Below, piece by piece: positions 46,191 through 53,453 of a stretch of DNA of 64,000 nucleotides. Below the pieces are notes generated by a model. That model made no database searches and was not told the origin of the DNA. It was given only the letters and a program-made list of their open reading frames with translations. The translations under genes were made by a program, and so were the position numbers. Source of the stretch: Parvibaculum sp. (GTDB taxonomy: Bacteria; Pseudomonadota; Alphaproteobacteria; Parvibaculales; Parvibaculaceae); contig JAUSLL010000058.1 of assembly GCA_030649335.1 (NCBI GenBank), positions 62,001 through 126,000 of the forward strand, read 5' to 3'. Each line of letters starts with the position of its first letter. The first letter of the stretch is position 1.

Positions 46191-47057
46191 ATGACGATGA
46201 CCAAACCGATGACCATCAAACAGTTCAATAAGCAGTTCCCAGACGATGACGCCTGCTTGGACCACCTGATGAATGTGCGTTACGGCTCCAAGTTCTTCTG
46301 CACCAAGTGCGGCGCTGAAGCTAAGCACCATCGCGTCAAGGCCCGCCGTTGCTACGAGTGCGAGTTCTGCGGCCATCAAGTCTACCCGACAGCCGGAACA
46401 CCGTTTGCCCGTACACGCACGTCTTTGCGCGATTGGTTCTATGTAATGTTTTTGTTTTGCACGACGCGGAACGGCGTCAGCGCGAAGGAAATCCAGCGCC
46501 AGCTAGGCGTCACCTACAAGACCGCATGGCGCATGGGCCATGAAATCCGCAAGTACATGGGCTGGGTTGACGGAGACGATCAAATCGGCGGTTCCGGCCC
46601 CGTCGAAACTGACGAAACCTTCATCGGCGGCAGGGACAAACTCGGCAAAGACGACAAGCATATCGTCCTCGGCATGGTAGAGCGCGGCGGCGACGTCATC
46701 ACCCGCGTCATTGACTCGGCCACCATCGAAGGCGTCGTGCCTCACATGGTCAAAAACATCAAAGAAGGGGCCACGGTCTACACCGACAAGGCCCGCATTT
46801 ACTCAGACTTGAAGCGCGAAGGCTTTGCCCACGACTCCGTTAATCACATGATCAAGGAATACGTTCGCGGGCCGGTCCACACGAACACCATTGAGTCCTT
46901 CTGGGCCTGCCTCAAGCGCGGCATTAACGGTACGCATATCTGGGTGTCTAAGAAGCATCTCGCTTCGTACCTTGGCGAGTTTGAGTTTCGCCACAACCTG
47001 CGGAAGCAGCCGCACTTGATGTTTGACCTGCTTTTACTGGCTTTTCCTCGCCCCTGA
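46191..47057 (+). CDS. IS1595-family (ISXO2-like) transposase
   Basis: Zinc ribbon CTKCGAEAKHHRVKARRCYECEFCGHQ; VETDETFIGG, VYTDKARIY, HTNTIESFWACLKRGINGTHI. Confidence 0.93.
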   Translation: MTMTKPMTIKQFNKQFPDDDACLDHLMNVRYGSKFFCTKCGAEAKHHRVKARRCYECEFCGHQVYPTAGTPFARTRTSLRDWFYVMFLFCTTRNGVSAKEIQRQLGVTYKTAWRMGHEIRKYMGWVDGDDQIGGSGPVETDETFIGGRDKLGKDDKHIVLGMVERGGDVITRVIDSATIEGVVPHMVKNIKEGATVYTDKARIYSDLKREGFAHDSVNHMIKEYVRGPVHTNTIESFWACLKRGINGTHIWVSKKHLASYLGEFEFRHNLRKQPHLMFDLLLLAFPRP

Positions 47058-48788: not shown

Positions 48789-49541
48789 ATGGTCGCGCGG
48801 GTCGAGACGGTTGCGTTTCAGGGGGTGGAGGCGAGGCCTGTCGATGTGCAGGTCCATATGGCAGGCGGTATGCCGACCTTTACCGTGGTCGGGCTGGGCG
48901 ACAAGGCGGTTGCCGAAAGCCGCGAAAGGGTCCGCGCCGCGCTTCATGCGATCGGCCTCGGACTGCCGCCCAAACGCATCACGGTCAATCTGGCCCCCGC
49001 CGATATGCCCAAGGAAGGCAGTCACTATGATCTGCCGATTGCGCTCGGGCTGCTCGTCGTCATGGGCGTCATGTCGCAAACAGACCTCGATAAATTCATT
49101 GTGATCGGTGAGCTGTCGCTGGACGGCCAGATCAATGCGGTGGCGGGCGCGCTGCCTGCGGCAATGGCGGCCAACGCGCGCGGACGCGGGTTGATCTGCC
49201 CAGAGGCCTGCGGGCCGGAAGCGGCCTGGGCGGGGATGGATGAGGCCAATGTCGGCGGCATTCTCGCGCCGCGCTCGATCATCGCGCTGGTCAATCATTT
49301 CAAAGGCACGCAGGTGCTCGCCGAACCTCAGCCGATGAAGGCAACAGACGCCCGTTCGCAGCCGGACCTGCGCGACATCAAGGGGCAGGAAATGGCCAAG
49401 CGCGCTTTGGAAGTCGCGGCAGCCGGCGGCCATAATATGCTGATGGTGGGACCGCCCGGGTCCGGTAAATCCATGTTGGCCGCACGTCTGCCGGGCATCC
49501 TGCCGCCTTTGAGCCCACGCGAAATGCTCGGCATTAGGTAG
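48789..49541 (+). pseudogene. comM: comM (YifB/Mg-chelatase-like ATPase), N-terminal ~250 aa only
   Basis: VETVAFQGVEARPVDVQVHMAGGMPTFTVVGLGDKAVAESRERVRAALHAIG; Walker A MVGPPGSGKSMLAARLPGILPPLSPREML then stop supplied by the element end (ATT AGG TAG). Confidence 0.93.
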
Positions 49542-49576
49542 CAAATGGGACAGGATTTGTTCTGTTAGGTAGCAAA
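49534..49576 (+). repeat. Two tandem direct copies of element-end motif TTAGGTAGCAAA
   Basis: 49534-49545 and 49565-49576, matching the ends at 49975-49986 and (inverted) 53438-53449. Confidence 0.85.
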
Positions 49577-49581
49577 CGCAC

Positions 49582-49917
49582 CTAAGAAAGCACTTCGTGC
49601 ACAACCAAAAGATGGAAGCGAACCGGCTTCTGCGTTCCGTCCTTTGTTGGCGTGTACTCAACCAACACGTCCGCTCGAACTATTTTTGCGGAAGCAACAA
49701 TTTCAGGATCGATTGTCGGGTAAAGGTCCATTGGAAGACGCTTGAATCCGTCTTCATGGATAATTCCAGCCCAGCCCTTGCCTCGCTTGTCACGGTCCGT
49801 CGCTCTAATCTCTACTTCGACCCCTAAAAATGGCTCCGTGTCATTTTTATCGTCTAGTTCTGAAAGAGCGGCCTCTGTAGGAAACTCTTCAACAGCACCC
49901 TTTGAAACCCCGTCCAC
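49582..49917 (-). CDS. Hypothetical protein between element-end copies
   Basis: 111-aa ORF without recognised motif; ends in TAG. Confidence 0.5.
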   Translation of the reverse strand: MDGVSKGAVEEFPTEAALSELDDKNDTEPFLGVEVEIRATDRDKRGKGWAGIIHEDGFKRLPMDLYPTIDPEIVASAKIVRADVLVEYTPTKDGTQKPVRFHLLVVHEVLS

Positions 49918-50012
49918 ATAGGGGCCTTGTATACGCCCATTGCCGTTTCTCTTTGCTGGGCGAAATATGCGGTATTAGGTAGCAAACACACCTACCGAAA
50001 AGCCGCTTCCTT

Positions 50013-50648
50013 ATGGAGAAGGAAGGTGGTTATGATCGAGATATGGGGGAGAACTTCCAAAAGTTTCTTGATCGGCTTGAATCCCGCATTGCGCTTATTA
50101 CGAGCGTTGCTGGGAGTTCCCTCATGGGCGTGATAACGGGCTGGATTTCTGCCTATTCGGAATTTGTAGGCCAGTTCGGAGCGATTGGTTGGTGGTTCTC
50201 TGGGATGCTGGGAATGCTAATCACCGCGATGGCGTTCGCAGCTTGGGGTCGCTTTCGCCTATACACCGCGAATGCCGACTATATCCGTCGAGCAAAAGCC
50301 CCCACGGACGGGGTAAATCCTATAGAAGGCACGTTCGATCGAAAACGAATTAGGCTGGCTGAGTTCTTGCCGCCTATGCCGGTCGCTGTGAGCAACAAGA
50401 CCTTTACTGCATGCGATATTTTCGGTCCCGTTGTTGTCCGATTGGTTGGTGGCACTACCTTTGCCAATAACGAAATTTGTGATTGCGAGTTCGTTGCGGT
50501 TAAGGACGGCGCAGTCACCCCAAATGCGCTTCATATGGGGGACTTGACGATTAGGGGATCGCGCATTTTTGGGGTCACTTTCCTCGTGCCGGAAGCGGTA
50601 GCCGAGAATATCAAGCAATCCATGCCCGGAGCGAACTGGTTGAACTAG
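50013..50648 (+). CDS. Element B cargo: two-TM protein with soluble C-terminal domain
   Basis: LMGVITGWISAYSEFVGQFGAIGWWFSGMLGMLITAMAFAAW followed by a beta-rich tail; start could be internal (MGENFQ, 50043). Confidence 0.6.
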   Translation: MEKEGGYDRDMGENFQKFLDRLESRIALITSVAGSSLMGVITGWISAYSEFVGQFGAIGWWFSGMLGMLITAMAFAAWGRFRLYTANADYIRRAKAPTDGVNPIEGTFDRKRIRLAEFLPPMPVAVSNKTFTACDIFGPVVVRLVGGTTFANNEICDCEFVAVKDGAVTPNALHMGDLTIRGSRIFGVTFLVPEAVAENIKQSMPGANWLN

Positions 50649-50872
50649 TCCTCCAACCGCAATGTAGAACAGCCAATCGCTACGAGACATTGGATAAAAA
50701 ACGCCGCTGTGAATCCGCCTCGGCTGATCTTATTGGCCAGATTACGTTCCGTCTCCTGAATACCCATCTCGCCTAGCTTTTCTGCCAACTCCCGATAGCC
50801 GACGTTCTTGCGTTTGAGTTCTGCCTTGAGCATCCCCTTGACCCTTTCGGACCAATCTAAGTCTTTCGCCAT
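50645..50872 (-). CDS. DUF6471-like protein
   Basis: MAKDLDWSERVKGMLKAELKRKNVGYRELAEKLGEMGIQETERNLANKISRGGFTAAFFIQCLVAIGCSTLRLED; divergent from transposase. Confidence 0.75.
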   Translation of the reverse strand: MAKDLDWSERVKGMLKAELKRKNVGYRELAEKLGEMGIQETERNLANKISRGGFTAAFFIQCLVAIGCSTLRLED

Positions 50873-50899
50873 GTCGAATCCTCGTCTGTAGTGGTGAAA

Positions 50900-50961
50900 A
50901 TCACCATATTCGATGTAAACACCATTGACAACGGGATATGTTATCACCATATTCGATGTAA
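50900..50961. promoter_or_regulatory. Direct-repeat operator candidate between DUF6471 gene and transposase
   Basis: 19-bp ATCACCATATTCGATGTAA repeated exactly at 50900-50918 and 50943-50961; TTGACA at 50926-50931 lies between them. Confidence 0.6.
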
Positions 50962-50982
50962 CAACATCGAAAGTGATGACAA

Positions 50983-51951
50983 ATGGCACAGCACTTCCTT
51001 CTCAGCGCAAAGGCACGGACCCTCTCACTGGTCAAAGTGATGCGCCTGTCTGACGCGGAAGCCCTTGATACGTTCAAGGCAATCCGTTGGGCTGCGAATG
51101 ATGGTGAAGCCTATTGCCCCAAGTGCGGCTGCACGGCGGTCTATGGCTACAAGGCCCGTCCGATCTACAAGTGCCAAGCCTGCGAGGGTCAATTCTCGGT
51201 CACGTCCGGCACCATCTTCGCAAGCCGTAAGTTGGCCATGCGGGACATTCTCGCGGCAATCGCAATCTTCGTGAACGGCGCTAAAGGCGTGTCGGCCTTG
51301 CAGTTGAGCCGTGATCTTGATTGCCAGTACAAAACCGCTTTCGTCATGGCTCACAAGCTGCGCGAAGCTATGGGCGCGAAAGTCCAGTCAGAAGAAATCA
51401 GCGGCGAAGTCGAGATTGATGGTGCGTATTTCGGCGGCTATGTGAAGCCCGCGAACCAGAAGGCACAGCGCCGCGACCGTCGCTTGCTTGAGAACCGCAC
51501 CGGCAAACGCCGCGTCGTCGTCATCATGCGCGAACGCAATGGCACAACGCTTCCTTTCGTCACGAAGACAGAAGCCGAAGGCGTTTCGCGTATCGCCGCA
51601 ACGGTTAAAGCCGGTAGCGTGATCTTCGCTGACGAGGCTTCACACTGGGATGCTTTGCACGGTCGCTTTGAAACCAAGCGCATCAATCACTCGGAAGCCT
51701 ATTCGACCAATGAAGCCAATACGAACATGGCGGAAAGCTTCTTCTCCCGCCTGCGTCGCGCTGAAATCGGAACGCACCACCACATTTCAGGTCGTCACCT
51801 TCACGCCTATGCGAATGAAATGGCTTGGCGCGAAGACAACCGCCGCGTTTCAAATGGCGATCAATTCCTGATGGTTGTGAGCGCGTCTCTTGCGCATCCC
51901 GTGAGCCGTGAGTGGAAGGGCTATTGGCAGCGTCGGGCGATTGCTCGGTAA
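50983..51951 (+). CDS. IS1595-family (ISXO2-like) transposase, element B
   Basis: CPKCGCTAVYGYKARPIYKCQACEGQFSVTSGTIFASRKLAMRDI; EVEIDGAYFGG, VIFADEASHWDAL, TNMAESFFSRLRRAEIGTHHHISGRHL. Confidence 0.93.
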   Translation: MAQHFLLSAKARTLSLVKVMRLSDAEALDTFKAIRWAANDGEAYCPKCGCTAVYGYKARPIYKCQACEGQFSVTSGTIFASRKLAMRDILAAIAIFVNGAKGVSALQLSRDLDCQYKTAFVMAHKLREAMGAKVQSEEISGEVEIDGAYFGGYVKPANQKAQRRDRRLLENRTGKRRVVVIMRERNGTTLPFVTKTEAEGVSRIAATVKAGSVIFADEASHWDALHGRFETKRINHSEAYSTNEANTNMAESFFSRLRRAEIGTHHHISGRHLHAYANEMAWREDNRRVSNGDQFLMVVSASLAHPVSREWKGYWQRRAIAR

Positions 51952-52037
51952 AGGTCAGTTTTTCTATATGTTGACGTTGCGGAAACATCTACTACCAAGT
52001 AGAGTACCCGTGCGACCAGATGCCGCGAAACGAAAAA

Positions 52038-52057
52038 GGGCAGCCATAAGACTGCCC
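52038..52057 (-). terminator. Hairpin immediately upstream of tRNA; terminator-like on the minus strand
   Basis: GGGCAG-CCATAAGA-CTGCCC; on minus strand followed by TTTTTC. Confidence 0.5.
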
Positions 52058-52063
52058 CTCTAC

Positions 52064-52150
52064 GGGTGCGTGGTGAAATTGGTATACACAGCGGTCTTTA
52101 AAACCGCCTCCTGCCAGGGATTGTGGGTTCGAGACCCACCGCATCCACCA
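52064..52150 (+). tRNA. Class II Leu-type tRNA with anticodon UUA (predicted ochre suppressor)
   Basis: Hand fold: acceptor GGGTGCG/CGCATCC (one G-U), D arm GTG...CAC, anticodon stem GCGGT/ACCGC with 7-nt loop CTTTAAA (anticodon TTA at 52098-52100), long variable arm, T arm GTGGG-TTCGAGA-CCCAC, A73, encoded CCA. Confidence 0.9.
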
Positions 52151-52160
52151 CAAAACTTAT

Positions 52161-52186
52161 GGGCACCTTCGGGTGCCCTTTTCTTT
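52161..52186 (+). terminator. Rho-independent terminator directly after the tRNA
   Basis: GGGCACC-TTC-GGGTGCCC followed by TTTTCTTT. Confidence 0.85.
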
Positions 52187-52260
52187 ATCGAATCGATTCG
52201 TCAAGCGCGAATCATTTCTCTAATGTCCCCAAATGTACATTTATGTACCTATAGGGTCAA

Positions 52261-52506
52261 TTGAAGACTATGGCAGGACGCAAGCCAACTACTGGTTCCC
52301 GTTATAAGTTGGGTGAACCCTACGATAGTCTGCTCGCTGATTATTGCGCGGCGAACTACGGCGCCTCGCGCATTCAGGTCATACGAGAAGCGGTAAATGA
52401 GGTTGTGAATCAACGGTTAGAGCAAGATTCGGTAATGCGTGAACGCTTTAAGAAAGAGCGCGAAAGACGTACCGGAAAGCGGCGCGGAAATCTGGAGACC
52501 GTCTAA
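52261..52506 (+). CDS. Small ribbon-helix-helix-like/DNA-binding candidate protein
   Basis: RKPTTGSRYKLGEPYDSLLADYCAANYGASRIQVIREAVNEVVNQRLEQD; TTG start at 52261 or ATG at 52270. Confidence 0.55.
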   Translation: MKTMAGRKPTTGSRYKLGEPYDSLLADYCAANYGASRIQVIREAVNEVVNQRLEQDSVMRERFKKERERRTGKRRGNLETV

Positions 52507-52539
52507 TCGGGCGGCGTTAAGTCAACAAAGGACAATCCA

Positions 52540-52788
52540 ATGGACTACGGGGTTCTAGCCGCAATCGTCGTGATTTTTGGTGGCAGTATAATCGGTATAT
52601 TCAAAACAAAAACGCAGGGGTTCGGGCGTTACACGACAAGCGTTTTAGTGCTCACGCTCATTTTATTTGTCGCTGTTTTATGTTTTGCACTGGGGAAAGT
52701 TGAATGGGCACCGATGGCCAATCTTCTATTTGCTATTGCTGGATTTGCAGGCGGACTAATCACCGCGAAAACGGCAAACGCGGATTAG
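52540..52788 (+). CDS. Small multi-TM protein
   Basis: VLAAIVVIFGGSIIGIF, TSVLVLTLILFVAVLCFALG, MANLLFAIAGFAGGLI; AGGA upstream of ATG. Confidence 0.6.
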   Translation: MDYGVLAAIVVIFGGSIIGIFKTKTQGFGRYTTSVLVLTLILFVAVLCFALGKVEWAPMANLLFAIAGFAGGLITAKTANAD

Positions 52789-52815
52789 GCAATTTAGGCC
52801 ATCTCCTAAACCATC

Positions 52816-52965
52816 ATGCAGCAAACCGGATTGATATTGACCGCCCTAGGCTTCCTGACCGGAGCGGCGGGCGCGTACTGGCAACGCAAATGGGCGATGA
52901 TCCTAGGCGCGTCGGTCTGCTTTGTCGGAGTGGCGCTCGTGACGCTCGCGGGCTTTCTAAGTTAG
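52816..52965 (+). CDS. Very small TM protein (49 aa)
   Basis: Hand-read MQQTGLILTALGFLTGAAGAYWQRKWAMILGASVCFVGVALVTLAGFLS, below ORF-track cutoff. Confidence 0.45.
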   Translation: MQQTGLILTALGFLTGAAGAYWQRKWAMILGASVCFVGVALVTLAGFLS

Positions 52966-53385
52966 GTACGACCAAGCCTTGTAGTCGCCACCAGTTCCAG
53001 CCCCTTTGACAAACCCGTCAGCCTGTAAGCCCGTCAGACAAGCCCCTATGCGCTTCCTGATAATGACAAAGGTTGCGCCGTCGGCTCGCAAGCTCCTCTC
53101 GGCAATCCATGCCTCAGTAATGTCCCGTGACGTGACCGGCTTCTCTGCGTCTCTCAGGAAGGCCAGCACGAACCGCTTAACGTGACCCTTCTGGGCGCGG
53201 TGCTTGGTGGTGTAGCGCTGGATAGACTCATGCGTATTGGCCGGATCAAATAGCGCGATGCAGGCGTCTAGGTGGTCAATGTCGCATGTGACCTTGCGGG
53301 CCTCCGCGTCTAGTTGCTTGCGAAGGGCTAAAAGCTGGTCGCGCTTGGAAAGCAGTCCCGCGACTGTGTTGGGGCGTTCTGTCAT
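52957..53385 (-). CDS. Hypothetical protein: coiled-coil plus winged-helix-like C-terminus
   Basis: LLSKRDQLLALRKQLDAEARKVTCDIDHLDACI then VKRFVLAFLRDAEKPVTSRDITEAWIAER. Confidence 0.6.
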   Translation of the reverse strand: MTERPNTVAGLLSKRDQLLALRKQLDAEARKVTCDIDHLDACIALFDPANTHESIQRYTTKHRAQKGHVKRFVLAFLRDAEKPVTSRDITEAWIAERSLRADGATFVIIRKRIGACLTGLQADGFVKGAGTGGDYKAWSYLT

Positions 53386-53453
53386 GCGGGCAAAATACCC
53401 CCAGACCCCCGAAGGAAGGAAGAAAGGCTAAGGTGTGTTTGCTACCTAATACC

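Follow-up and report, generated by a model that had tools for sequence, protein, structure and literature searches.

A tRNA gene with a stop-reading anticodon, lying between the ends of a bacterial transposon, raises the question of whether a mobile element can carry a nonsense suppressor as cargo and what such a suppressor would do there. Nonsense suppressors are familiar from selections in the laboratory and from phages whose code has changed. The gene considered here lies in a 64,000-nucleotide stretch of DNA from Parvibaculum sp. (the window), and a sequence-only reading had taken it for an element-borne, leucine-type tRNA with a UUA anticodon that supplies a suppressor inserting leucine. 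The features of the locus are listed in Table 1.

Table 1. Features of the transposon and of its tRNA gene, in window positions
Feature	Position	Strand	Basis or remarks
IS1595-family transposon, 3,483 bp, carrier of the tRNA; no target-site duplication at these ends	49971..53453		inverted ends and transposase
Left terminal inverted repeat, GGTATTAGGTAGCAAACACACCT	49971..49993	+
Passenger ORF, 211 aa, membrane-protein-like, no family	50013..50648	+
DUF6471 protein, divergent from the transposase	50645..50989	-	PF20075, E 2e-31
IS1595-family DDE transposase with zinc ribbon, stop codon TAA	50983..51951	+	PF12762, 1e-42; PF12760, 2.7e-11
Class II tRNA gene, leucine-type body, anticodon UUA (ochre/amber), encoded CCA	52064..52150	+
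Anticodon TTA (tRNA positions 34-36)	52098..52100	+
Terminator-like hairpin (7 bp, 6 G-C, TTTTCTTT tail), directly 3' of the tRNA	52161..52178	+
Small passenger ORF, 81 aa, no family	52261..52506	+
Small membrane-protein-like ORF, 82 aa	52540..52788	+
142-aa protein, coiled coil and winged-helix-like by eye, no Pfam family	52957..53385	-	homologs in L038 and other relatives
Right terminal inverted repeat, perfect 23-bp match to the left	53431..53453	-

ARAGORN reports a tRNA-Stop with anticodon (tta) at this position, the sole tRNA in the window, and Rfam RF00005 matches the same interval over its full model (1-71) with 54.2 bits (gathering score 29; E 7e-9), so that both programs agree on the tRNA and the anticodon that had been read from the letters. 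All 20 stem pairs are of standard type, with an acceptor of GGGTGCG/CGCATCC, a D stem of GTG/CAC, an anticodon arm that reads GCGGT-CTTTAAA-ACCGC, and a T arm of GTGGG-TTCGAGA-CCCAC with a normal loop. The leucine-type body is confirmed by A73, the long class II variable arm, a 3-bp D stem, a leucine-type D loop, a 7/5 branch and the encoded CCA. The anticodon is complementary to UAA, as in a natural ochre suppressor, and its loop is built like that of a decoding tRNA (U33, A37, A38).

The host has 44 tRNA matches and a complete leucine set of five normal isoacceptors (UAA, UAG, CAA, CAG and GAG). These are 61-69% identical to the window tRNA, against 93% and 90% for its closest known sequences, the tRNAs of two other loci (L038 and L050), and the window tRNA therefore represents an acquired lineage. 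The earlier remark that one base change, at 52099, separates it from tRNA-Leu(UAA) stands insofar as 52099 is position 35, but the closest host tRNA-Leu(UAA) is only 68% identical overall. A private one-base mutant of that host gene is ruled out by this figure and by the 93% identity of an element-borne homolog; the UUA anticodon is likewise shared by homologous elements.

The window transposase is assigned to IS1595 by its domains – DDE_Tnp_IS1595 and an N-terminal zinc ribbon – and perfect 23-bp inverted ends enclose it together with the tRNA and the remaining cargo. The window sequence is thus a real tRNA gene and the cargo of an IS1595-family transposon, as the description of it as element-borne had held. 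A DUF6471 gene beside the transposase is a conserved partner in most relatives of the window transposase clade, and a Pfam search of the partner proteins gave no solid match. A second IS1595 transposase, of the other clade and without a tRNA, lies 4 kb upstream (46191-47057).

An 8-bp target-site duplication is absent at the window locus; the flanks AAATATGC and GGAGATTT differ and come from two different genes: the left one is a truncated comM with ChlI and Mg_chelatase domains, and the right one encodes a cytochrome c. A search of this assembly for the C-terminal comM domain gave nothing. Two extra repeat-end-like stretches, GGCATTAGGTAGCAAA and TTAGGTAGCAAACGCACCT, stand at 49530 and 49565 (together 49530-49583), after comM and ahead of the main left end, and suggest nested or successive insertions. 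Because of these extra ends, the lack of a duplication, the absent comM domain and the origin of the flanks in two genes, the insertion was probably rearranged afterwards, and we read the missing duplication as the probable result of that later rearrangement of the window copy.

The nearest relative of the tRNA is found at the same place in a related element of another alphaproteobacterium (L038/L085), which has a transposase 72% identical to that of the window element, a homolog of the 142-aa protein, and the same gene order: a divergent DUF6471 gene, the transposase, a tRNA-UUA ~120 bp behind it, and a partner ORF. The ends of this complete element match, its target is duplicated, and it lies inside comM, a gene that encodes a transformation helicase. 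The sites at which comM is interrupted differ between the window element (comM part 48789-49531) and the L085 element, and a further element (L084) lies immediately upstream of a comM that appears intact. These insertions are reminiscent of the resistance islands in comM of Acinetobacter.

The UUA tRNA recurs in other homologous elements. A GTDB genome set (~85,000 genomes) was scanned for GGTCTTTAAAACC and then for class II spacing and the T loop, and IMG/VR was scanned likewise, giving 45 loci in the genomes and 9 more in viral contigs; these scans preset UUA and class II geometry, so they cannot gauge how usual UUA is, and conservation of the anticodon among their matches proves nothing. 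ARAGORN calls tRNA-Stop(UUA) in 41/45 genome loci and tta in 50/54 overall, and nearly all 54 loci combine either A73 with a leucine-type D arm or G73 with a serine-type D arm. No UUA tRNA of class I that shares this anticodon arm was found in the viral contigs.

In 14 of the 31 cellular genomes examined, the tRNA has an IS1595 transposase no more than ~2.1 kb away, where by our own arithmetic (~50 transposases, ~4 Mb genomes) chance would give ~0.05, and in 7 of those 14 the adjoining transposase is the only IS1595 copy in the genome. In the usual order the tRNA comes first, then a small coiled-coil gene, and 300-1000 bp downstream the transposase, which is encoded on the opposite strand. Complete elements, 2-3.7 kb long and with inverted repeats and intact 8-bp duplications around both transposase and tRNA, were found at several loci (L071, L072, L074, L076, L084 and L087); the L059/L076 type measures 1,966 bp. 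A second context for UUA tRNAs is a 294-aa family (C2) with IS1-like transposases. Recurrence in related elements suggests that stop readthrough, or another use of such tRNAs, may benefit a mobile element.

Three other Parvibaculum genomes carry a serine-type UUA tRNA (L008 8278-8366, L009 6105-6193, L010 4213-4301) in an 88%-identical 1.2-kb block, together with a 294-aa gene of no known family and with differing surroundings. Copies of the window element are ruled out here, these tRNAs being serine-type (G73) and lying in a different mobile block. Among PLSDB plasmids, transposase relatives occur in a few alphaproteobacterial plasmids, with no tRNA among their annotated neighbours in a gene table that lists no RNA genes, and the partner gene has no relatives; no relatives were found among INPHARED phages.

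The cloverleaf covaries strongly. Over 32 leucine-type sequences, 96.9% of stem cells are paired, 13/20 pairs show two-sided changes (including all seven acceptor pairs), and the covariation score is 0.478 against 0.057-0.175 for controls with slid partners. The 27-43 pair is mismatched in 17/32, leaving a 4-bp anticodon stem, and the window copy keeps the fifth pair. Suppressor screens in E. coli tied a 4-bp anticodon stem, or the 27-43 mismatch, to UAA readthrough, according to PMC13092985.

A suppressor needs stop codons on which to act. The pattern of a recoded element – in-frame UAA or UAG inside conserved genes – is not found: none lies inside any gene of the window element, and there are no stops within the transposase or partner alignments, so only terminal stops remain as candidates. 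In-frame TAG codons flagged in two transposases (L112 and L113) proved on inspection to be outside the matched core. UUA-linked IS1595 transposases end in TAA or TAG in 15/15 cases; TGA is used by 36/111 unlinked relatives and, as an estimate of stop usage from the window, by 33 of its 52 long ORFs. The absence of TGA alone is weak in the large transposase clade (0/13 vs 16/63, p 0.058), and it is not significant over independent pairs.

A stronger pattern is seen in where the stop lies. In the large clade the tail after the motif GKRLTY is at most 2 codons in 12/13 UUA-linked transposases and in 1/63 unlinked ones (Fisher 5e-12); linked tails have two codons, with one codon once and seven codons once, and unlinked relatives extend 1-18 codons past the motif (median 8). 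On the tree of this clade the UUA label changes nine times, and short tail and UUA go together in 8.8 of 9 independent contrasts on average, with none against (sign test p ~0.004). A conserved C-terminal readthrough extension was sought behind the transposase stop and was not found (L077 has tandem TAG TAA, and L085 has TAG-GAT-TGA), and the window transposase clade has no clear tail pattern (n=2). These comparisons are moderate evidence that the suppressor may act on the transposase stop in the large clade, and there is little evidence, from two examples, that it does so in the clade of the window element.

Taken as a whole, the sequence comparisons lead us to regard the gene as probably a functional, leucine-inserting ochre/amber suppressor that is retained as cargo of an IS1595 transposon. 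Bacterial leucyl-tRNA synthetase does not read the anticodon, and the host enzyme would charge the element tRNA with leucine. The leucylated tRNA would then compete with release factors at UAA and, through U34 wobble, at UAG, inserting leucine at stops with a frequency between low and moderate. Since UGA ends most long ORFs in the window, such readthrough may be tolerated by the host. A benefit to the element itself is put forward with lower confidence than suppression; also at lower confidence, one target in the larger IS1595 clade would be the transposase's own ochre/amber stop, and the form or activity of the transposase would thereby be tied to the co-carried tRNA.

The principal alternative, which we think unlikely, is a tRNA-like cargo RNA that can be charged but for which the anticodon is of little consequence. 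Its role would lie outside decoding – it might be a decoy, bind the small proteins of the element, or act by way of aminoacylation – and UUA would be one of several anticodons that are tolerated. It draws on anticodon-blind searches of the surroundings of transposase relatives and C2-gene relatives, in which leucine-type bodies appeared with the anticodons UGU (L142, 3354-3439), GGA (L204, 5288-5371), AGG (L205, 5041-5124) and GCG (L244, 922-1019), as did a serine-type body with CCU (L113, 1274-1388). All five adjoin IS1595 transposases or the C2 gene and are candidate missense suppressors. The same searches returned odd class I tRNAs, and many transposase and C2 relatives have no tRNA at all. 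Homologous elements therefore agree with the window element in part only: some share UUA, but others have mismatched anticodons or tRNA-like RNAs without a D arm in similar places, and the cargo class as a whole may not serve to suppress stops.

The D-armless RNAs are 68-70 nt long (L072 7905-7972, L076 7570-7637, L150 3573-3640, L161 2037-2105, L162 4969-5036, L243 2305-2373) and lie near IS1595 transposases or the C2 gene; acceptor and T arms are intact, mostly with G3:U70 and A73, and they resemble the tRNA-like domain of tmRNA. In several UUA elements a further tRNA-like gene, of class I and with an anticodon stem that pairs poorly, lies between partner gene and transposase (L073 7913-7986, L075 7123-7196, L078 8215-8288, L079 1603-1676). 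LeuRS, SerRS and AlaRS ignore the anticodon, and G3:U70 with A73 is the alanine identity. That the cargo bodies belong to these three synthetases suggests that charging is kept while the anticodon varies, as a chargeable RNA with an indifferent anticodon would also have it. Such indifference sits poorly with the decoding form of the anticodon loop, with the transposase stop pattern that goes with UUA linkage, and with the recurrence of UUA on both leucine and serine bodies and with different anticodon stems. The anticodon-blind searches themselves again gave UUA (L066; L242, with a different anticodon stem; and L248, truncated), L242 having been reached through its partner gene in a search blind to the tRNA.

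Less likely still is a role directed at the host, in which low-level readthrough or mistranslation creates host dependence, as masked nonsense mutations accumulate, or disturbs phage gene expression. This would suit any suppressor with any anticodon, and such tRNAs do turn up in elements of very different kinds (IS1595, IS1-like together with the C2 gene, and some IMG/VR contigs), but the transposase stop pattern does not follow from it. That the tRNA is a neutral passenger or is decaying, its anticodon altered by a chance mutation, is very improbable: the target duplication of the window element is gone and the flanks are rearranged, but the tRNA has perfect stems, a terminator and 93% conservation in another lineage, covariation over the 32 sequences is strong, the association is recurrent, and close copies so far keep paired stems and UUA.

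A more far-reaching form of the suppressor reading is offered tentatively, as a possibility we doubt more than we believe. IS1595-type transposons would repeatedly have gained an ochre/amber suppressor and brought their transposase under its control, with the UAA/UAG stop of the transposase two codons past GKRLTY, such that an active or longer form is made only where the element's own tRNA is expressed – a translational licence – and transposons would form a reservoir of identity-shifted tRNAs limited to LeuRS, SerRS and AlaRS.

Known IS1595-family transposons with passenger genes resemble the window element in their DDE_Tnp_IS1595 and zinc-ribbon transposase, terminal inverted repeats, passenger ORFs and, in relatives, 8-bp duplications; the window element adds a tRNA gene with a stop-codon anticodon. 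The sequence-only reading knew of no such element, and a search of the open-access literature (subscription papers lay outside it) found no description of an IS1595 element with a suppressor tRNA or tRNA cargo. The window tRNA belongs to a broader group of tRNAs that recur on transposons, and no description of this group was found in that literature.

Phage-borne nonsense suppressor tRNAs (Crassvirales; PMC10607447, PMC12386605) and laboratory suppressors likewise have a stop-reading anticodon on an ordinary tRNA, the former also with a mobile element as carrier, but genes of the phage carriers hold many in-frame recoded stops and those of the window element hold none. Allo-tRNAs (PMC7609411) are natural tRNAs of class II too, and their non-cognate anticodons are diverse and include ochre; they have 8/4 or 9/3 acceptor-T branches and serine-type bodies (Mukai et al. 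2017, reviewed in PMC7609411); the window tRNA is ruled out as one of these by its leucine-type body and fully paired 7-bp acceptor and 5-bp T stem (7/5). The mistranslating tRNA-ProX of Streptomyces (PMC11415595) is similarly a natural tRNA with mismatched body and anticodon, and differs in its proline body and sense anticodons; the passage of that paper on it states no transposon link. A 2026 survey reports suppressor tRNAs in 0.3% of bacterial genomes (PMC13092985), in standard-code bacteria, and these sporadic suppressors are alike as stop-reading tRNAs, although its text names no mobile-element association, unlike that of the window tRNA.

Genes of this kind are readily overlooked, as standard annotation discards them as 'tRNA-Stop', 'tRNA-???' or pseudo-tRNAs. 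If they are indeed a recurrent, selected suppressor cargo in standard-code bacteria, transposons would spread stop-codon readthrough between bacteria, and they would provide a testable case of a mobile element that uses the genetic code to govern its own transposase or its host.
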